Below, piece by piece: positions 9,805 through 18,020 of a stretch of 35,543 bases of DNA. Position numbers and translations under genes: made by a program. Under the pieces are notes generated by a model, which saw only the letters and a program-made list of their open reading frames with translations, made no database searches and had not been told where the DNA came from. The DNA comes from Nitrososphaerota archaeon (lineage in GTDB: Archaea > Thermoproteota > Nitrososphaeria > Nitrososphaerales > Nitrosopumilaceae): assembly GCA_018668425.1 (NCBI GenBank), contig JABJDB010000090.1, positions 1 to 35,543 of the forward strand. The letters run 5' to 3'. How positions within the stretch are numbered: the stretch's first letter is position 1; each line of letters opens with the position of its first letter.

Positions 9805-10314
9805 ATGGTAAAGACATCTGTCCAAATGAAAGAAATGATAGAAGAATTTATCAAAATTACCAAAATCAATTATGAAGATCAGACAGAAAAAATTAGAGAA
9901 AAAAGTCAAGCGATTGAATGGCAATTCAGAGTGGGGGCAAACGTAATTGTCAGTAAAAATTCAAACAGAGATGACAGAGTTCACCTTAATGTAAATATGA
10001 GATTCCCACCAAATGATGCAAAATTACTAGTTATGAAGAATCCATCATTTTCAAAAGCAATAATGGAGATTAGTGAGATTTGTGCAATTTGTAATGTAGG
10101 TCATCAGTGGATTAAAGATAAAGAAAACATTGCAGGATTGGCTATTTTTTCACATGTAGATGAACTGAATTTAGATAGAATATCATTTCACAACACATGG
10201 GATAATGTAGCCAGGGTTTCAGGACACGTTCAAAAAATATTACGTTCAAATTTCAGCGGATTTTCATCTCAGGGCAATCAGGGTGAAACAACTGAAAAAT
10301 CAATGTATGGATAA
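9805..10314 (+). CDS. Conserved hypothetical protein, 169 aa (DUF2299-like?)
   Basis: The protein is soluble, without signal peptide or membrane segment. A mixed alpha/beta domain includes QAIEWQFRVGANVIVSKN and DRVHLNVNMRFPP, followed by a helical C-terminal half with two Cys (EICAICNVG). The shape resembles the archaeal DUF2299 group, but I am not sure of that assignment. It is the last gene before the left 18-bp repeat at 10353-10370. On the empty-site model it would be convergent with argS. Confidence 0.75.
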   Translation: MVKTSVQMKEMIEEFIKITKINYEDQTEKIREKSQAIEWQFRVGANVIVSKNSNRDDRVHLNVNMRFPPNDAKLLVMKNPSFSKAIMEISEICAICNVGHQWIKDKENIAGLAIFSHVDELNLDRISFHNTWDNVARVSGHVQKILRSNFSGFSSQGNQGETTEKSMYG

Positions 10315-10352
10315 AATTCCAAAGATTTATGAGCCATTTGTATTAATTTTAC

Positions 10353-10370
10353 AGTAATTGGTTTGCACGC
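10353..10370 (+). repeat. Left copy of 18-bp direct repeat (candidate attL)
   Basis: The sequence AGTAATTGGTTTGCACGC occurs here and again, exactly, at 16050-16067. Similarity continues weakly outside (TTT upstream, one mismatch then AA downstream). It is in the intergenic space 38 bases after the stop of the 169-residue hypothetical protein. The second copy lies 45 bases from the start of a tyrosine recombinase gene, which is the arrangement of attachment sites. Confidence 0.6.
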
Positions 10371-10496
10371 TAATTATTGTTGATTAAAAGTTGGCCAGTC
10401 GTAAAAATTATTCATCTAATACAGATTAGACAAACTCAAGATTATCTACAATTCCAACATGTTCGATATTTAGTCTCATAATCGATGTCAATTTCA

Positions 10497-10736
10497 TCAA
10501 TTTTCATTATTCTGTATCTCTTCTATTTTTTCTTCTTCTTCAAACATAACTCGTTCAAACTCTTTTCTTAAATGATCACATTTTGTTTGTTTTTCATCTT
10601 CATCCATTTTTGAGAATCGGATGTTCCTAATTTCATCCACAATTGCAGAAATTTTAGCATTTGTTTCAAACATTATGTCATCAATCTTTTTCTGTGTATC
10701 TGAATCCATAGTCATATCATAAGAAATGCTCCACAT
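10497..10736 (-). CDS. Small acidic coiled-coil protein, 79 aa
   Basis: Almost the whole protein is predicted helix, with heptad-like spacing (KKIDDIMFETNAKISAIVDEIRNI) and a strongly acidic C-terminal half (FEEEEKIEEIQ). There is no membrane segment and only one Cys. The given ATG at 10736 could be replaced by in-frame Met codons at residues 8 or 10. It is the first gene inside the left repeat. I do not recognise a family; protein-protein interaction is the only reasonable suggestion. Confidence 0.6.
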   Translation of the reverse strand: MWSISYDMTMDSDTQKKIDDIMFETNAKISAIVDEIRNIRFSKMDEDEKQTKCDHLRKEFERVMFEEEEKIEEIQNNEN

Positions 10737-10881
10737 TAGGATTATCTTGATTTTTATTTCTGATAATCAAGGATTTTCTTTTAATTGTAAGATAATGAAC
10801 AACATGTAAAAATTATAAAATATGATACAAACAAGATTTACAGAATTTCATCAAACATACAAAAGAATAGAGTAGATTAAT

Positions 10882-11538
10882 CTATTTTTTACCAAATTTT
10901 CCTAACAAAGGAACAAAAACATAATTAGATTGATTTTTGATTTCAATATTTCCCACAGATGTTTTTTTTAGTAAAATTAACGATTGTGAAGTATCACCAA
11001 CTGGTGCAAGTAAAAGTCCATTTTCCTTTAATTGTTCAAGTAAAGGTAAAGGAATTTCTGTGCATGCAGCAGTAATTATTATTCTATCATAAGGAGATGC
11101 TTTTAGATATCCAAGGCTACCATCACCCAAAATAACATGAACATTTTTTATTTTTAAACTTCTTAGATTCACTTGAGCAAATTTTACTAACTCTGGATGT
11201 AGTTCAACAGAATAAACAGTTCCTTCTCCTACCAAATAAGAAAGAATTCCACTTTGCCAACCGGAACCAGTACCAATCTCAAGAATATTTTGTCCATTTT
11301 TAACATCCAACCATTCAGTCATTCTAGATACAACACCAGGTTGAGAGATAGTTTGATTTTTCATAATTGGTAGTGGTTCATTGTAATATGCATAATCTAG
11401 TTCAGATTTTGGAACGAATTTGTGCCTCGGGATATTTCTAAATGCCAATTCTACGTTATGGTTGGTTAGATATCTAGAATTTTTCAGATAGGAAATTAAA
11501 TCGTTTAGTGCTATATGATATTTTTTTTCTATCTTCAT
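10882..11538 (-). CDS. pcm: Protein-L-isoaspartate O-methyltransferase
   Basis: PIMT methylates isoaspartyl residues in aged proteins with SAM, starting their repair. The 218-residue length is standard. Visible motifs are the substrate-binding region with FVPKSELDYAYYNEPLPI and TISQPGVVSRM, then motif I NILEIGTGSGWQSGIL near residue 85, VYSVELHPELVKFA, and the later GDGSLGYLKASPYDRIIITAA. There is no signal peptide. It lies inside the candidate island, 19 bases downstream of a UspA gene on the same strand, which fits a stress/repair cargo. Confidence 0.95.
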   Translation of the reverse strand: MKIEKKYHIALNDLISYLKNSRYLTNHNVELAFRNIPRHKFVPKSELDYAYYNEPLPIMKNQTISQPGVVSRMTEWLDVKNGQNILEIGTGSGWQSGILSYLVGEGTVYSVELHPELVKFAQVNLRSLKIKNVHVILGDGSLGYLKASPYDRIIITAACTEIPLPLLEQLKENGLLLAPVGDTSQSLILLKKTSVGNIEIKNQSNYVFVPLLGKFGKK

Positions 11539-11557
11539 TTGGATTAATCTCCAACAA

Positions 11558-11983
11558 TTATTTTACAATCATAACTGGAATTGTAGATTTATGAAGTACG
11601 TGATTTGATGTGCTACCAAAAAACATCTCTTTTGCAGAACCCATTCCTCTTGAACCAATTACTATAAGATCAAAATTTTTTTTCTCAGCAATATCTACAA
11701 TTCTTTTCCCACTATCACCATAAGAAACCCTATCTGAAAATAAAATTCCATTTTGTGCTGACCTTAATTTAGCTTTTTTCATGATTTGTTCTGCATGTTT
11801 TAACAACATTTTTTCTAATGATGATATTGGCTCACTTGTTTGAGGTTTAACCATACCTAATACATACACCCCAGTAATCATAGCTTGGCATTGTCTTGCC
11901 ACATTAATTGCAGTATCAAGACCACGAAAAGAATTAGGAGAACCATCTAAAGGAACAAGAATTTTTTTAATTTTAGGTAGCAC
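11558..11983 (-). CDS. Universal stress protein (UspA family), 141 aa
   Basis: This is a single-domain Usp of 141 residues. The N-terminal strand and loop read KKILVPLDGSPNS. The ATP-binding signature GX2GX9G(S/T) is complete as GSRGMGSAKEMFFGSTSN, so an ATP-binding type is expected. It is one of three Usp genes in a row inside the candidate island, and it ends 19 bases before pcm. It is closest in its C-terminal motif to the 12103 and 29361 paralogues (GMG...KE.FFGSTSN.VLHK). The signal sensed is unknown. Confidence 0.93.
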   Translation of the reverse strand: MLPKIKKILVPLDGSPNSFRGLDTAINVARQCQAMITGVYVLGMVKPQTSEPISSLEKMLLKHAEQIMKKAKLRSAQNGILFSDRVSYGDSGKRIVDIAEKKNFDLIVIGSRGMGSAKEMFFGSTSNHVLHKSTIPVMIVK

Positions 11984-12102
11984 GTAATAAAATAAACTAC
12001 TTTGAAGTTTAAAGACTACTGTTATTACCTTAGTTGATTTTCAATAATGATAATTTCTAAATTTAAAATTTTTACAATTAATATTCAAAAACAGAATTAT
12101 AA

Positions 12103-12543
12103 TTATTTGATAATGGTTACTGGAGCCTTTGCTTTATGTAAAACAAAATTTGATGTACTTCCAAAAAATAATTCCTTTGGAAATCCCATTCCTCTTGAAC
12201 CTATAACAATTTGATCAATCTTATTTTTGGGATTATTAGCAAATGTGGTCAAGTCTATACCTGAAGAATGACCACCAATAACCACTCTTTCAAATTCAAT
12301 GCTATTTTTTTCTACTTTTTTCTTTGCAATATTCATTAATGCTTTAGATTCTTTTTTCCATTTTTTCTCTGGAAGTATAGGTGCACGAACAGCAGAAAAT
12401 GCACTAAAGCTTGTATCACTATGAACACCAATAATTATAGCGTCAGATTGTTTTGCAAATGAAATTGCCTTATCTAATCCTCTAAGAGAATTTTTTGATC
12501 CATCCAAACAAACCATAATTTTCTTATTATTCATACAAAACAA
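12103..12543 (-). CDS. Universal stress protein (UspA family), 146 aa
   Basis: The start of the fold reads KKIMVCLDGSKNSLRGLDKAI and the ATP-binding motif GSRGMGFPKELFFGSTSN is intact. Between them lies a His-containing loop (GVHSDTSF and VIGGHSSGIDLTT) that differs from the 11558 paralogue. The gene is separated by about 120 bases from its downstream Usp neighbour, room for an independent promoter. Its similarity to the 11558 and 29361 proteins points to gene duplication in this lineage. Confidence 0.92.
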   Translation of the reverse strand: MFCMNNKKIMVCLDGSKNSLRGLDKAISFAKQSDAIIIGVHSDTSFSAFSAVRAPILPEKKWKKESKALMNIAKKKVEKNSIEFERVVIGGHSSGIDLTTFANNPKNKIDQIVIGSRGMGFPKELFFGSTSNFVLHKAKAPVTIIK

Positions 12544-12643
12544 GAGATATACTTCCTATTTATTTCAAAAGATAATCGTTAATTTTGAAAACAAGTATTC
12601 ATACATGATTAAAAAGAATATTCTAATTAATCATGATTTTTAA

Positions 12644-13084
12644 TCATTTTGTCAATAATACAGGAGATTTAGCTTGTTGTGACACACTATTTGCTACACT
12701 ACCTAACAATAACTTGTTAAATCCTGTTCTACCATGAGAACCCATTACAATAAGATCCATTTTGTTAGTTTTTGCAAATGCTACTATTTGATTTGCTATA
12801 GCATATGTTGGAATTATTTTACTTTTGATTAATACATTTGATTTATTTTTTGTATTATTTACTAATTTTGTAATATTTTCTTTGGCAACTTTTTCTTCTT
12901 TTTTTAATATTGCTTTAGTATAACGTGAATCATAATACCATACACCACGATATACTGGTTTTAGAAGACATGCAAGAATTGTTATTTTTGAGTCATATTT
13001 TTCAGCCATATCTAATGCAGTCTTAAATGCATGAAGAGAATATTTTGAGCCATCATACGGAACTAAGATATTTTTAAAAATCAT
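12644..13084 (-). CDS. Universal stress protein (UspA family), divergent, 146 aa
   Basis: This Usp belongs to another subgroup than its two neighbours. Its N-terminus is FKNILVPYDGSKYSLHAFKTAL and its ATP-binding motif is GSHGRTGFNKLLLGSVANSV, the RTG...LLLGSVA form common in bacteria and archaea. It contains a Lys-rich middle with VKAYR-like variation (PVYRGVWYYDSRY) unlike the other copies. It starts the Usp run in the transcriptional direction, after a 184-base gap from the small membrane protein. No domain other than Usp is seen. Confidence 0.93.
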   Translation of the reverse strand: MIFKNILVPYDGSKYSLHAFKTALDMAEKYDSKITILACLLKPVYRGVWYYDSRYTKAILKKEEKVAKENITKLVNNTKNKSNVLIKSKIIPTYAIANQIVAFAKTNKMDLIVMGSHGRTGFNKLLLGSVANSVSQQAKSPVLLTK

Positions 13085-13267
13085 AAATGTTCATAGTGTC
13101 TAAATCATTAAAAGTGTATATCATATTTTTCAAAGATGAAAATCAAATTACATTTTTGTTGATATGTTTTATTTTCTATAGATATTTCCATAATTCAAAC
13201 TGATTCTATTCATGACTTTATTTTCTTAAAGGGTACAAAGTAAACCCAATATTCTAATTTTTGAAAA

Positions 13268-13342
13268 TTACGTAAATAAGATAGCTATAGAAATAACAAT
13301 CAATGTAATTCCTGCCACAATTATTACACCTTTAAAGAACAT
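13268..13342 (-). CDS. 24-residue single-span membrane microprotein
   Basis: From an ATG at 13342 the frame encodes MFFKGVIIVAGITLIVISIA and four more residues, that is one membrane helix after a short FFKG lead. It starts 26 bases after the stop of the cupredoxin gene on the same strand, so it may be translated from the same transcript. Such a clean hydrophobic frame is suggestive, but 24 codons can arise by chance in A/T-rich DNA. Confidence 0.4.
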   Translation of the reverse strand: MFFKGVIIVAGITLIVISIAILFT

Positions 13343-13368
13343 TTTTAGTCATCAAATATTTCCCTATA

Positions 13369-13953
13369 TTACTTTACAGTAACTGAAGCTTTTGCCCAAG
13401 GATGAATCATACAAAAGTAAGAATATTTTCCTGTGTCATCAAATTTATGTGAAAATGTTTCATTTGATTTTATTAATCCGCTATTAAATTCCCCATCAGG
13501 ACCAGAAATAATATTTCCACTTGTTACTGTATGTACTGAAGAATCATCATTTTTCCATATTACTTCACCACCTTTGAAAATTATCAATGATGGTGGATCA
13601 TAACATTTGTCTACTTCACATCCTGGAACTGACGTACCTTTTGGAATACCAACTAGTCTTGCAGGAAGTTTGGAAGTGGTTAATTCCTTAGTGGTTTCTA
13701 TTACTTCTTCAGCTGATTGTTTTCCCTTCTCAATTACTTGTTCAGTTTTTTCTGCTGCATGTTTTGCATCTTCTATTGTTTGTTTAGTAACTAACATTTC
13801 AAATTCTATTTCTTTTTTTCCATTTTCTATTGAAATTTCATTAGAAGGTAATGAAACATCAGATACAAAATTAGAGTTAATTCCAGCAAATCCAACCCCT
13901 ATTGCTACTATTACAATAGATACAGCAATTCCTGCTTTATCCATAGAAGTCAT
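13369..13953 (-). CDS. Membrane-anchored plastocyanin-like cupredoxin
   Basis: Residues 8-25 form an N-terminal membrane anchor or signal peptide. A charged helical stalk follows at about 52-95, then a cupredoxin domain from about 100 to 194, facing outside the cell. Type 1 copper ligands are H141 (SSVHTVTSG), C181 and H184 (YFCMIHPW). The usual axial Met after HPW is Ala187. An extra Cys pair, C112 and C117, may form a disulfide. Such proteins carry electrons in the copper-based respiration and ammonia oxidation of this group. The cupredoxin-like gene at 14012 is upstream on the same strand. Confidence 0.92.
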   Translation of the reverse strand: MTSMDKAGIAVSIVIVAIGVGFAGINSNFVSDVSLPSNEISIENGKKEIEFEMLVTKQTIEDAKHAAEKTEQVIEKGKQSAEEVIETTKELTTSKLPARLVGIPKGTSVPGCEVDKCYDPPSLIIFKGGEVIWKNDDSSVHTVTSGNIISGPDGEFNSGLIKSNETFSHKFDDTGKYSYFCMIHPWAKASVTVK

Positions 13954-14011
13954 AAAGTAAAATTGCTATCTTGTACTAATAAATAGAAAATAGAATATTC
14001 AGATTTGAAAA

Positions 14012-14503
14012 TCATATCAAATCATTCCAAATACCTGTAAATTCATCACTAGGTACAACAGTTCTTACTTCTAGAAATCCTAAATGTTCAAGCCATTGTC
14101 TTTTATCAAAATATTTGTAGACTCCTTCTTTGTTAGGATAAATAGTAAGGGTTTCTTGTTCTCCAATCTCTAAAAGATCTGTTTGGATATCTAATCCATC
14201 AATGTATAATCGATGTTCTGTATCACCATTATTTATGACAGTTAACAAATACGCAAAATTAGTTCTAGTAATAAGATGAGGGTTAGGTTCTCCACCTATA
14301 CCTATAATTCCTCGGAGTTGAACTTGTCCATCTACATCTTCAAAGACAACAGTTTGTTCAACACGTTCTTGCCAAAAAATGGAAACATGTCGTACATTTC
14401 CTTGACCAATAAACCCAATTATTACTGCCAAAGATACAACACCGATTAAAATTGCAGCAAGTATCAGTGTTTTATCCTTTGAGATCATAATTTGAATTAC
14501 CAT
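14012..14503 (-). CDS. Membrane-anchored cupredoxin-like protein without copper cysteine
   Basis: One N-terminal membrane helix (about residues 10-32, ILAAILIGVVSLAVIIGFI) is followed by an extracellular beta domain. The latter part has the rhythm of a cupredoxin: NNGDTEHRLYIDGL, LEIGEQETLTIYPNKEGVYKYF, then EHLGFLEVRTV where the metal-binding loop would be. The Cys of a type 1 or CuA site is absent, although several His remain. It could be a structural partner of the cupredoxin encoded downstream on the same strand. The cupredoxin-fold assignment is a pattern judgement. A later Met at residue 6 is another possible start. Confidence 0.65.
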   Translation of the reverse strand: MVIQIMISKDKTLILAAILIGVVSLAVIIGFIGQGNVRHVSIFWQERVEQTVVFEDVDGQVQLRGIIGIGGEPNPHLITRTNFAYLLTVINNGDTEHRLYIDGLDIQTDLLEIGEQETLTIYPNKEGVYKYFDKRQWLEHLGFLEVRTVVPSDEFTGIWNDLI

Positions 14504-14539
14504 TGTAAGAATAAAAAATAATGTTAAAAAATAAGAGAA

Positions 14540-14743
14540 TTAACTTGTTGGGTTCATTGCAGCAGCACGATCTTTTACTTTTTGATCAACTAAAGCATCA
14601 ACATATTGACCTGGTTGGGCATTACAATCACCAATGTTAACTGAAAAACCATCAAAGGTTTCTCCAATACAGCCTTCATCTGTAATTGCTATTATTTTGA
14701 CTAACTCCATATTTGTTTCAGGTGCAGTATAGAACATCATCAA
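14540..14743 (-). CDS. Small exported-looking hypothetical protein, 67 aa
   Basis: The predicted protein has two Cys (DEGCIGETF and NIGDCNAQPG) that could form a disulfide, and an acidic middle. The assigned start is TTG at 14743, with ATG codons following immediately. In frame upstream of the start the sequence encodes about 13 more residues that are hydrophobic (QKSILLVIL), which would complete a signal peptide with the MMFYTAPETN segment. No ATG, GTG or TTG was found there to begin it. The true start is therefore uncertain. Gene neighbours on the same strand encode exported copper-type proteins. Confidence 0.55.
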   Translation of the reverse strand: MMMFYTAPETNMELVKIIAITDEGCIGETFDGFSVNIGDCNAQPGQYVDALVDQKVKDRAAAMNPTS

Positions 14744-14778
14744 TATAACTAATAATATTGATTTTTGTAAATTCTTGA

Positions 14779-15222
14779 TTAAGGATTTGTGGATTGTAAA
14801 TGTTTTTCAATTTTCTCCAATAGTTTTTGTTTTAATTCGGGATCATCAACTGTATGTTCAAGCAAGTCTTTCATTAGTAGATGGTGTCTATCCATTTCAT
14901 CCATTACTTGTTGCTTCATCATAGGATCATTAATTCCAGACATCATCATGTCATGCATTGAAGTATGTTGAGACATACCACTCATCATACCTGTCATGTT
15001 TCCCATCATGTCTGAATCCATCATGTTGTTTCCCATCATACCTGAATCCATCCATTGTTGTGACATTCTAGGATTATTTGACATCATTTGATCAAACAAT
15101 TCTTGATTTTGAAATTTCATAGACATTGGATTATACGTATTTGCAAAATAAGCATAACTTACACCAATTCCTACAATGAAAACAGCAATTACAATTGCAA
15201 TCAAAATATACTGATTAACCAT
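14779..15222 (-). CDS. Methionine/histidine-rich membrane-anchored protein (putative copper binder)
   Basis: The protein has a membrane anchor at residues 5-27 and then an extracytoplasmic region very rich in Met (about 26 of 147 residues). Repeats of MM, GMM and SGMSQH-type motifs occupy roughly residues 45-105, followed by a helix with HH and several Glu/Lys. Met-rich segments bind Cu(I) in other proteins, so periplasmic-side copper binding or delivery is inferred. It is the first gene of a same-strand run with the cupredoxins. It is not a recognised named family. Confidence 0.72.
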   Translation of the reverse strand: MVNQYILIAIVIAVFIVGIGVSYAYFANTYNPMSMKFQNQELFDQMMSNNPRMSQQWMDSGMMGNNMMDSDMMGNMTGMMSGMSQHTSMHDMMMSGINDPMMKQQVMDEMDRHHLLMKDLLEHTVDDPELKQKLLEKIEKHLQSTNP

Positions 15223-15306
15223 ATGAAATTATCAAAATAATTTTCAATATAATTAATAAGCATGATTTTCAGTGATGGTTTTTAAAAATGGTTTTGTATG
15301 TTTTCT

Positions 15307-15314
15307 CTATATAG
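15307..15314 (+). promoter_or_regulatory. TATA box for small membrane protein
   Basis: CTATATAG is centred 24 bases before the ATG at 15335. This fits an archaeal promoter whose transcript starts at or near the start codon, and it argues for that ATG rather than earlier in-frame ones. Confidence 0.5.
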
Positions 15315-15334
15315 GACATCCCATACTCATACGT

Positions 15335-15499
15335 ATGATTCGAGGATCTCCAAGATATGTCATGATAGCATTTTTTGCATTAGGAGTATTACTTGTAGGA
15401 TTTTCATTATGGGCATTATATTTAACAGATATTCCACAAGAACAATTCTTAGAGGATCCAATTGTTTCATCAGAATCTGCATACAGTAAAATAGCATAA
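15335..15499 (+). CDS. Small single-span membrane protein, 54 aa
   Basis: The protein starts MIRGSPRYVM and has one membrane helix of about residues 9-30 (IAFFALGVLLVGFSLWALYL). A short acidic tail, DIPQEQFLEDPIVSSES, follows. It is the only gene on the plus strand within the candidate island. Its 3' end overlaps the truncated recombinase on the other strand, so either its tail or the recombinase end was created by a rearrangement. A longer frame from 15272 exists, but the TATA box position favours this start. Function is unknown. Confidence 0.5.
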   Translation: MIRGSPRYVMIAFFALGVLLVGFSLWALYLTDIPQEQFLEDPIVSSESAYSKIA

Positions 15500-16049
15500 C
15501 ACCCATGTCCATTCCATTCCATCATAGTGAGATGTTTCATAAGTAATGGATGATCATGGACTCCAATTCGGGCGCCAGTTGATGCTTGAAAATGAATTAA
15601 TGCTTTGTTTCTCAAATATGGAGTGTATTCAATCATCAATGCAATTTGTTCTGTAGTCCATGCCTTGAAACCAGAACGTTTGACTTCTTTTGGAAATAAT
15701 GCCTCAAGTGGCTTCCATTTTATGTCATTTTCACGATAATTGGAGTTTAGTAGCCATTTGATTCCTCGAAACATTTTGGGAACAGTGTTTGCAGATAGAT
15801 CATTGTTGTTCACTCGTTTTATCAAATGTCTGGTATATGAAACCAAAATTTTCTGCAATTCATCAGTGGGACAATCAATTAGTTCATCGTCTGACTTTAT
15901 TGGAGAGAGTTTGTAGAATTGAGATAATCGGAAATTGTAATCATTTTTGGTGGCAGTAGAAAAATTTGATTCAGATATAGTAATTTTATCAGCTAACTCA
16001 GACATTTAATGAAAAGTAAGGTTTATTGGCTTAAAACAATTCGTTTAAG

Positions 16050-16067
16050 AGTAATTGGTTTGCACGC
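16050..16067 (+). repeat. Right copy of 18-bp direct repeat (candidate attR)
   Basis: This is an exact second copy of AGTAATTGGTTTGCACGC, 5697 bases from the first at 10353-10370. It lies between the integrase start (16005) and the argS terminator. It does not resemble a tRNA 3' end, so the attachment site would be intergenic. Confidence 0.6.
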
Positions 16068-16104
16068 CAAGGTATTTTTGAAGAGTTTCGACTCATCAAA
16101 TACC

Positions 16105-16133
16105 CCTAGAGAGAGACTTGTTTTCTCTCTAGG
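16105..16133 (-). terminator. Hairpin after argS
   Basis: A perfect 10-bp stem, CCTAGAGAGA paired with TCTCTCTAGG around a 10-base loop, lies three bases beyond the argS stop. A weaker GAGT-TTCG-ACTC hairpin follows. This is likely a transcription or processing end for argS. It lies outside the candidate island. Confidence 0.5.
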
Positions 16134-16136
16134 ACA

Positions 16137-18020
16137 TTACATTCTACTAGGAGTATCAATACCTAACAAATCAAGTGCATTCTCAAGTGTCATCTTAAAT
16201 GAATTAACTAGACACAATCTAGTATCTTCTAATTTTTCATCATCAAGACCAAGCACCTTATTTTTCTCATAAAAAGAATTGAAAGAAACAGCTAGATCAT
16301 GGCAATATTTGGCAACTACTTTTGGAGACAGATTATTTGCAGCATCCCTTACATGGATTCCAAACAAACCAATTGTTTTTACTAAATCTAATTCAGATTT
16401 TTCAACAAGTAAGGAATAATCAACATCAATAGAAGGTGTTCGTCCAGATTTTTCCAAAATTCTTGATGCACGTGCAAAAGTGTATTGGATGTATGGTGCA
16501 GTATCACCTTCCAAGCTAAGTGATTTTGTTAAATCAAATGTAATTATTTTATCCAAATCTTGCTTTATCATTTCATAACGTAATGTTCCAACTGAAACAT
16601 TATGGGCAATAGTTTCAATCTCAGAAGAGTCAATTTCAGGTCGCCTCTTAGTAGTTTCTGCAATAACTCTCTCCCTTAGTAACTCATAAACAGAATCTGC
16701 ACTAACGTAGAGTCCTTTTCTTCCAGACATCTGAGCTTGTTTTCCATCAGTTTCCAACCCCAATGTCTTTGCAGTATCAGAACTCAAAGTTACAGACTCA
16801 TAACCCAAATGAACATATGCATCAGGAGCAGACTTGAATTTCCCCATCAAATCAGTTACAATTTTTTGAAGTCTTGCTTGACGAGAATCAATTACAGTAA
16901 TTACTTTTTGCCCTGTAAAATTTTCTTTAGAATTATTAGGATTCAGAGTTGTTTGCCATAATTCATGAGCACCAGATTGAGATGTAGTATATTTTTCATA
17001 GTAAAATGGATCTTCTACAAGACCTAATTTCCAGGCAGCGTATGGAATGTCTTTTGCAACATAAGTTGCAACTCCGTTACTTCTCACAATTACCTTATCT
17101 TCTTCTTTTCCATCTCCACGAATAACCCAGCACCCAGCATTTTTTCCATCATTTTCAAATTCTACTAATTTCATGTCTTTGAGTTTTTCAAAGATTTTAG
17201 ACCACAACCCAGAACGAATTATTTGAGATTCAAAATTAAGGCAATCATAAGTTACAGAAAGATTCCAACAAGTTTTCAATTGATTTGTAAGGACTTTTCT
17301 TGTGACAATATCTGCAAGTTTTGCAATATCTGATGATTCATCTTCAAGATCTTTTAAAATACTCTTTCTTATTTCTTCAAGACTAGAATCTTCTTCATAT
17401 TTTTGAGTTGTCTTAACGTAAACATCATCTCCGCAATAATGATCAAACTTTTTTCCATCAGGAGGTTCTTGAGAAAATCCAAGATGAGTAAAACCTAATA
17501 AAATATCTGCTACTTGTAATCCAGAATCATCAATATAGTTTAGAACATTAACACGGTAATCGGCTTTTCGTAGTATTCTAGAAATAGTATCACCAATTAT
17601 GATATTTCTAATATGACCAATGTGTAATGCTTTGTTTGGATTTACACTTGTATGTTCAACAACAATTGTAGATTTGTTTCCCAATTCAACAAAGCCAAAT
17701 GTGTCTAAATTTGATTCAGATAAAATTAACTGACTTAATTTTTCCCAATTTGCAAAAAAGTTAAGGTATCCAGAGGGATGTGCCTCAGATTTTGTAACCA
17801 ATGTATTTACAGATTTATTATAATGCTCAGAGAATAGTTCTGCGATATCTTTAGGACTTTTCTTGAGTTGTTTTGCAAGTAAAAATGCAATATTGGAACT
17901 AACATCTCCAAATCCAGGTTTTGCAGGCTCTACAGAAAAACTAACATCAGAAATATTCATCTCAGAGAGAATTCTATTGAGATTGTTTTGAACCTCATCT
18001 AAAATAGATTGGAAAGTCAT
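16137..18020 (-). CDS. argS: Arginyl-tRNA synthetase
   Basis: This class I synthetase charges tRNA-Arg with arginine. The 627-residue length is normal. An N-terminal ArgRS-specific domain (about residues 5-90, with GFGDVSSNIAFLLAKQLKK) precedes the HIGH motif at 133-136 (HTSVNPNKALHIGH). The KMSK equivalent is the altered MSGRKG near residue 430. The C-terminal DALR anticodon-binding domain (TLRYEMIKQDLDKIITF to YTFARASRIL) is complete. The start is two bases after the phosphoglycolate phosphatase stop, so they form an operon. A hairpin follows its stop. Confidence 0.97.
   Translation of the reverse strand: MTFQSILDEVQNNLNRILSEMNISDVSFSVEPAKPGFGDVSSNIAFLLAKQLKKSPKDIAELFSEHYNKSVNTLVTKSEAHPSGYLNFFANWEKLSQLILSESNLDTFGFVELGNKSTIVVEHTSVNPNKALHIGHIRNIIIGDTISRILRKADYRVNVLNYIDDSGLQVADILLGFTHLGFSQEPPDGKKFDHYCGDDVYVKTTQKYEEDSSLEEIRKSILKDLEDESSDIAKLADIVTRKVLTNQLKTCWNLSVTYDCLNFESQIIRSGLWSKIFEKLKDMKLVEFENDGKNAGCWVIRGDGKEEDKVIVRSNGVATYVAKDIPYAAWKLGLVEDPFYYEKYTTSQSGAHELWQTTLNPNNSKENFTGQKVITVIDSRQARLQKIVTDLMGKFKSAPDAYVHLGYESVTLSSDTAKTLGLETDGKQAQMSGRKGLYVSADSVYELLRERVIAETTKRRPEIDSSEIETIAHNVSVGTLRYEMIKQDLDKIITFDLTKSLSLEGDTAPYIQYTFARASRILEKSGRTPSIDVDYSLLVEKSELDLVKTIGLFGIHVRDAANNLSPKVVAKYCHDLAVSFNSFYEKNKVLGLDDEKLEDTRLCLVNSFKMTLENALDLLGIDTPSRM

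Follow-up and report, generated by a model that had tools for sequence, protein, structure and literature searches.

The window analysed here is a stretch of 35,543 nt from contig JABJDB010000090.1 of assembly GCA_018668425.1, which represents a marine ammonia-oxidising archaeon of the Nitrosopumilaceae (Nitrososphaerota) with a genome of 1.27 Mb assembled into 113 contigs. Two exact copies of an 18-bp sequence, AGTAATTGGTTTGCACGC, lie between a gene for a conserved hypothetical protein of 169 amino acids (aa) and the convergent argS gene, and the segment between them contains a truncated tyrosine recombinase gene and accessory genes. An earlier reading of the sequence (hereafter, the original prediction) had proposed an integrated, not-yet-described cargo element at this position. 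Our analysis indicates that the segment 10358-16070 is very probably the remnant of an element that was site-specifically integrated into a predicted small RNA gene by a distinct group of tyrosine recombinases. The features of the insertion site and of the element ends, including the attachment (att) sites, are as follows; genomes, loci and contigs of relatives are designated by our G, L and C numbers.

9805..10314, plus strand: left flanking host gene, 169 aa, conserved hypothetical (open reading frame [ORF] and relatives).
10326..10331, plus strand: host-side TATA-like box, TTTATG, 34 bases upstream of the core GG (sequence; conserved position).
10353..10370, plus strand: left 18-bp repeat, the attL core, host left flank plus core (exact match and comparison with relatives).
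10374..10407, plus strand: decayed element-side arm (P' arm) adjoining attL, matching TGTTGACCGAAAGTTGGCCACGCATGAA (matrix score).
15335..15466, plus strand: 5' fragment of a small membrane-protein gene, which marks the rearrangement that cut the integrase (homologues located elsewhere in 19 relatives).
15460..16005, minus strand: tyrosine recombinase (integrase), N-terminal 182 residues, with the C-terminal catalytic part missing (homology and NCBIfam).
16022..16027, plus strand: TATA-like box TTTATT in the element arm, 35 bases before the GG, a putative replacement promoter (sequence; conserved position).
16050..16067, plus strand: right 18-bp repeat, the attR core (exact match and comparison with relatives).
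16050..16138, plus strand: predicted structured small RNA (covariance model R1, 47.9 bits, and fold), with hairpin 1 at 16055-16070, hairpin 2 at 16071-16104 and hairpin 3 at 16105-16133, followed by ACATT at the argS stop codon.
16137..18020, minus strand: right flanking host gene argS (ORF and relatives).

The exact identity of the two 18-mers was confirmed, and shuffled windows yielded only 0.04 matches on average for such a pair with up to three mismatches allowed. No further copy was found in the whole 1.27-Mb genome (up to two mismatches searched). One copy lies behind the 169-aa gene and the other behind argS. The repeats are thus situated between coding genes, as originally described, but the right copy is not simply intergenic, being the 5' end of the predicted RNA gene. 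The shared core is better written as the 16-bp sequence TTGGTTTGCACGCCAA, which occupies 10358-10373 on the left, where one base has decayed (CTAA versus CCAA), and 16055-16070 on the right, where it doubles as hairpin 1 of the RNA and is followed by two more hairpins that reach the argS stop codon. When the window was scored with a matrix built from 12 element arms of other genomes, the P' arm beginning at the base after the left core ranked first among 71018 positions. Because of this top score, the left repeat is regarded as a true but decayed attL.

The comparison with relatives revealed both empty and occupied forms of this site. Among 95 genomes of the genus, the 18-mer (up to one mismatch) is present in 40, normally in one or two copies per genome and mostly in one, so that it is not a repeat scattered in dozens of copies. 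Where one stretch includes both argS and the 169-aa gene, they are separated by anything from almost no sequence to 31 kb. Three genomes (G022, G023 and G033) have a single motif between the two genes, in a total of 120-140 bp, which is the tidy empty site expected if one repeat were collapsed; the gene order without the element therefore retains one copy of the motif. Occupied relatives contain 1-31 kb of unrelated genes at the same place. Further copies accompanied by integrases, which had been proposed as a check, were also found in relatives: G013 and G092 each contain two motifs, 15 kb and 7.9 kb apart, respectively, each with integrase remnants. The G092 locus (L067, G092:C1:1061800-1079900), with two cores and two different integrase remnants, looks like a tandem integration at one site. 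In two other genomes (L051 of G093, and G010:C1:564991-592185), argS and the 169-aa gene are co-oriented and 15-25 kb apart, which suggests an inversion at the hotspot.

A complete element was identified in another genus, at a locus distinct from argS. In G118 (L315, G118:C1:944500-964400), exact repeats of about 21 bp are located 15.7 kb apart, with cores at positions 2131 and 17809 of the locus, and a full-length integrase with 74% identity to that of G015 begins 48 bases from one core. This element also contains a Usp-like (universal stress protein-like) gene, a transporter-like gene and genes for ribbon-helix-helix-like proteins. Its siblings G117, G120 and G122 have the empty RNA gene beside the same gene for a 107-aa protein. 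At attL of G118, G127 and G128, as in the empty siblings, the bases preceding the core resemble the host; on the downstream side, the host hairpin gives way at the core to an element arm. Because the G118 element sits at a different chromosomal locus for which empty siblings exist, the integrase target, as judged from these sequences, follows the RNA gene and not argS.

Two assemblies provided a finer view of the exchange point. In G034, two contigs (C8 and C10; L180/L322 versus L131) have exactly 127 bases in common, up to and including the last base of the core, beyond which one continues into an element arm and the other into the RNA body and argS. In G066, two contigs (L084 on C38 and L321 on C34) have exactly 141 bases in common, running from argS up to the other core edge, beyond which one continues into an intact integrase and the other into the chromosome. 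Since the shared lengths are typical k-mer sizes, these pairs look like assembly-graph forks, and occupied and empty forms therefore appear to coexist in both samples. As the forks hit the two edges of the 16-bp core, the exchange can be placed within it. A free (circular or viral) form was not detected: among 12 exact core matches in viral contigs, none had integrase or flanking-gene homology, and their flanks are unlike the RNA. Exact core matches in Nostoc and other bacteria were excluded, as their flanks are unrelated.

The recombinase begins at 16005, 44 bases inside the right repeat, and reads inward, in agreement with the original prediction. It aligns at 75-76% identity to residues 1-182 of the intact homologues of G036 (398 aa) and G066 (378 aa) and then stops, whereas intact homologues have approximately 380-450 residues. 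The first arginine motif (GARIG) is kept; the HxxR motif (HGFR in the intact proteins) and the tyrosine motif are missing. A 75-aa ORF on the plus strand over the integrase end was rejected as a gene, being a fragment of a gene located elsewhere. The closest homologues (68-76% identity) are found solely beside motif sites, intact in G036 and G066 and broken in G040 (two stops) and G092 (one stop), the latter two adjoining argS or the motif. The integrase of G015, with 55% identity to that of the window, is full length and also adjoins argS or the motif; the remaining homologues in the genus show <45% identity or are degraded remnants adjoining argS. The distance from the core to the integrase start is 49 bases in both the window and G066. 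Because its own integrase is truncated and has lost the HxxR and tyrosine motifs, the element of the window is, on this sequence evidence, a dead relic as far as its own enzyme is concerned; the original prediction of an integrated element is otherwise largely supported.

A predicted small RNA gene, apparently undescribed and conserved across the Nitrosopumilaceae, starts with the right repeat. The 16-mer (up to one mismatch) was found in 105 genomes from 9 genera of this family, and 3 of 168 genomes outside the family have one copy each; a reversed control yielded 2 hits in 400 genomes. The 16-mer adjoins argS in two other genera too. The core can fold into a hairpin with a TTGGT/GCCAA stem and a TTGCAC loop; in argS-side copies and many element-side copies, one or two more hairpins and, in most cases, GACATT come after it. 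In a set of 15 divergent three-hairpin copies, 90% of the pair cells are canonical and 20 of the 35 pairs exhibit two-sided changes; neither shuffles nor slid structures come near the real fold. Host-type stems of different genera were compared one by one (a joint alignment is off register by one between genera), and the last hairpin is kept with different stem sequences in copies of several genera. Of 65 non-redundant copies chosen for dissimilar upstream sequences, 48 have a TATA-like box whose first base is 29-36 bases upstream of the GG, and same-size windows elsewhere give at most 11 unless they overlap the box. Archaeal promoters have a usual box-to-start spacing, and from this spacing and the box position, transcription would start at the first bases of the 18-mer. 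We infer that the RNA is transcribed and that the box is its promoter.

Relatives of the RNA were also observed at other loci. Nine copies (L112-L120, in G012, G059, G084, G042, G061, G038, G003, G018 and G089) keep TTTGCACGCC and have a different 5' stem; their location is conserved within a clade, and no integrase homologue was seen nearby. In G108, from another genus, a full-length copy of the element type lies at 17984-18081 of L142 between pyrE and a gene for a methionine-rich protein, near a copper ATPase gene; horizontal transfer of this RNA copy is possible. No match to Rfam was found in the window or at five loci, so that a known Rfam family was rejected, and a tRNA gene as the target was likewise rejected, as ARAGORN finds no tRNA in the window. 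No description of the RNA or of the argS hotspot was found in the literature searched, beyond which one may exist.

An alternative that we consider unlikely is that the RNA belongs to the mobile elements themselves as part of their attP, the single copies in seemingly empty genomes being scars of earlier excision or deletion. The presence of copies at several loci and the element-type copy of G108, far from argS, would fit this explanation. However, many species of one genus share single copies with their own promoter and body at the same place and with no integrase (e.g. the L294-L307 group, L311 and L313), and the argS-adjacent copy is common to at least three genera.

Slightly less credible still is the explanation that the element is real and its target is a mere conserved DNA palindrome, or a terminator shared by the two convergent genes, with the integrase using the dyad symmetry and the hairpins serving as binding sites or terminators. 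The core does have dyad symmetry (TTGGnnTGCAnnCCAA), the hairpin on the argS side directly adjoins the stop codon of argS, and near-palindromes are present in some element arms. Against this stand the conservation of the core in genera where it is away from argS and without an adjoining integrase, and the fixed distance of the TATA-like box despite unrelated upstream sequences. Furthermore, the argS-ward (plus) strand folds more stably than its complement in 57 of the 65 copies and frequently has UUCG loops, a comparison free of strand bias but involving related copies that are not independent. The GU-over-AC counts (69 versus 15) point in the same direction but are biased, because the structure was derived on the plus strand.

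It is very improbable that the island grew by homologous recombination, or by repeated deletion and insertion between dispersed hairpins, with the integrase uninvolved. The broken integrase of the window and the many relatives that hold cargo at this site without an integrase remnant would be compatible with such a process, but in G034, G066 and the G118 siblings host sequence gives way to element sequence precisely at the edges of the core, and the conserved P' arm and an intact integrase occur in several genomes. A coincidental repeat pair or an assembly artefact, conceivable in an assembly of so many contigs, can practically be dismissed given the low chance expectation and the recurrence of this motif, together with the arms and the integrase, across dozens of independent assemblies.

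Integration into an RNA gene by this integrase group thus remains the most probable explanation, and several points weigh against it. Hairpin 2 is missing in many argS-side copies, indicating that the fold is not uniform, and some lineages (G002, G046, G050 and G064) have no motif at argS. The RNA gene is a prediction from sequence evidence. The contig forks could reflect a strain mixture rather than excision in one strain, and, with the genome in 113 contigs, a join made during assembly could in principle account for the truncated integrase.

In the mechanism that we propose, the integrase would have recombined the attP of the element with an attB through the 16-bp core, attB being the first hairpin of the small structured RNA gene between argS and the convergent gene. 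At attL (10353), the host promoter and core would now stand ahead of the P' arm of the element, and at attR (16050), the element's P arm, with its own TATA-like promoter and core, would stand ahead of the host RNA body. The RNA gene would thus have been split from its own promoter and supplied with a new one by the element. Because the box of the P arm (16022, at −35) matches the position of the host box (10326, at −34), the RNA gene at attR would be element-driven. The swap of promoters in practice and the function of the RNA and of the cargo are likewise inferred. Some elements carry their own complete RNA body on the P' side (e.g. L089 and L036), which would restore the gene at attL as well. 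A later rearrangement probably removed the catalytic half of the integrase, with the P' arm decaying and the cargo, consisting of the protein-L-isoaspartate O-methyltransferase (PIMT), three Usp and cupredoxin genes, being left fixed. It is a more tentative idea, which we consider somewhat less likely to be right than wrong, that across the family the RNA is a dedicated docking gene of its own integrase lineage, at which integrations swap the promoter and elements take over the expression of a host regulatory RNA.

The genes carried by the element, all on the minus strand, are listed below.

10497..10736: 79-aa protein with no assigned function (ORF, Pfam scan and relatives; a homologue with 62% identity in the same hotspot of G032).
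10882..11538: PIMT (Pfam PCMT, 4e-59).
11558..11983: universal stress protein (Pfam Usp).
12103..12543: universal stress protein (Pfam Usp).
12644..13084: universal stress protein (Pfam Usp).
13369..13953: cupredoxin of the plastocyanin/azurin type (Pfam Copper-bind; NCBIfam amicyanin-like).
14012..14503: cupredoxin-like protein (Pfam Cupredoxin_1, below the cut-off).
14540..14743: 67-aa protein (ORF and relatives; homologues in other elements at the site, L040 and L047).
14779..15222: 147-aa methionine-rich membrane-anchored protein (sequence; a homologue near a cupredoxin gene in G108).

The cargo of stress, PIMT and copper proteins named in the original prediction was thus recovered by Pfam. 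PIMT genes are present in 37 of the 95 genus genomes and, being patchy in the genus and nearly always at other chromosomal places, this one was probably acquired by the element. The gene for the methionine-rich protein adjoins the cupredoxin genes, and this pairing, a like one of which is seen in G108, suggests a role in copper handling. Usp and cupredoxin genes recur among elements at the site, the cargo being otherwise diverse (TFIIB, an XPB-like helicase and transporters); a benefit of the cargo to the host is a guess. Pfam revealed no genes for virus structural proteins, casposases or conjugation in the window cargo, and the 134 hotspot ORFs include none in their 25 commonest families.

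The element fits a broad category that has been described before, that of the thaumarchaeal cryptic integrated elements (CIEs), which are integrase-bearing islands of 2.6-98 kb with UspA and plastocyanin-type cargo (Krupovic et al. 2019, PMC6563490). It shares with them an integrase gene inside the element (truncated in the window and intact in G036, G066 and G118), short direct repeats at both ends (18 bp, compared with a median of 17 bp for all thaumarchaeal elements; PMC6563490), empty sites in close relatives, and cargo of the same type. The target classes of that survey are tRNA genes, intergenic regions and the 3' ends of protein genes, and argS is unnamed in its main text (PMC6563490), whereas the predicted small RNA gene described here is targeted at its 5' end, and repeatedly so. 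The term 'not-yet-described' is therefore appropriate for this element, its integrase group and its target, but not for the category; what is new is the predicted RNA family, the repeated use of this RNA as a docking gene and the integrase group tied to it.

Other known systems offer partial parallels. The pTN3-like archaeal integrases use the 5' half of an RNA gene as attB, and after recombination that gene owes its expression to a promoter brought by the element (PMC8371274). The position of the core at the 5' end of the RNA gene and the TATA-like box at a matching distance in the element arm of the window resemble this arrangement, but pTN3 inserts into tRNA genes, and integration splits its integrase gene. 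The RNA described here is of a non-tRNA kind, and the element contains its integrase gene uninterrupted, at a distance of 48-49 bases from the core. A split integrase of the SSV (suicidal) type was rejected, as the core is upstream of the start codon and whole genes are present inside the G036 and G118 elements. As with tyrosine integrases that target tRNA genes, the core here is a stem-loop in which about 6-7 bases separate two short arms, resembling an anticodon stem-loop (PMC8371274), but the window has no tRNA and the RNA matches no Rfam family. The integrase of the window shows weak matches to XerA, XerC and XerD profiles of NCBIfam over its first 147 residues (26-30 bits), and the G066 homologue has a C-terminal Phage_integrase match below the cut-off. 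Because the Xer scores are far under the equivalog cut-offs (220 bits), the protein is not a XerA orthologue. An integron array was also rejected, as cores are present only at element ends and an integrase lies within each element.

These results turn a pair of repeats into a testable system and yield a new family of predicted RNAs in abundant marine archaea, fixed in both position and structure. They also define a hotspot of integration through which these organisms receive stress and copper cargo, and an integrase group whose target tracks the RNA gene to different loci across genera. If the promoter swap is true, it would extend a rare, pTN3-like mode of RNA-gene takeover to an RNA gene other than that of a tRNA.

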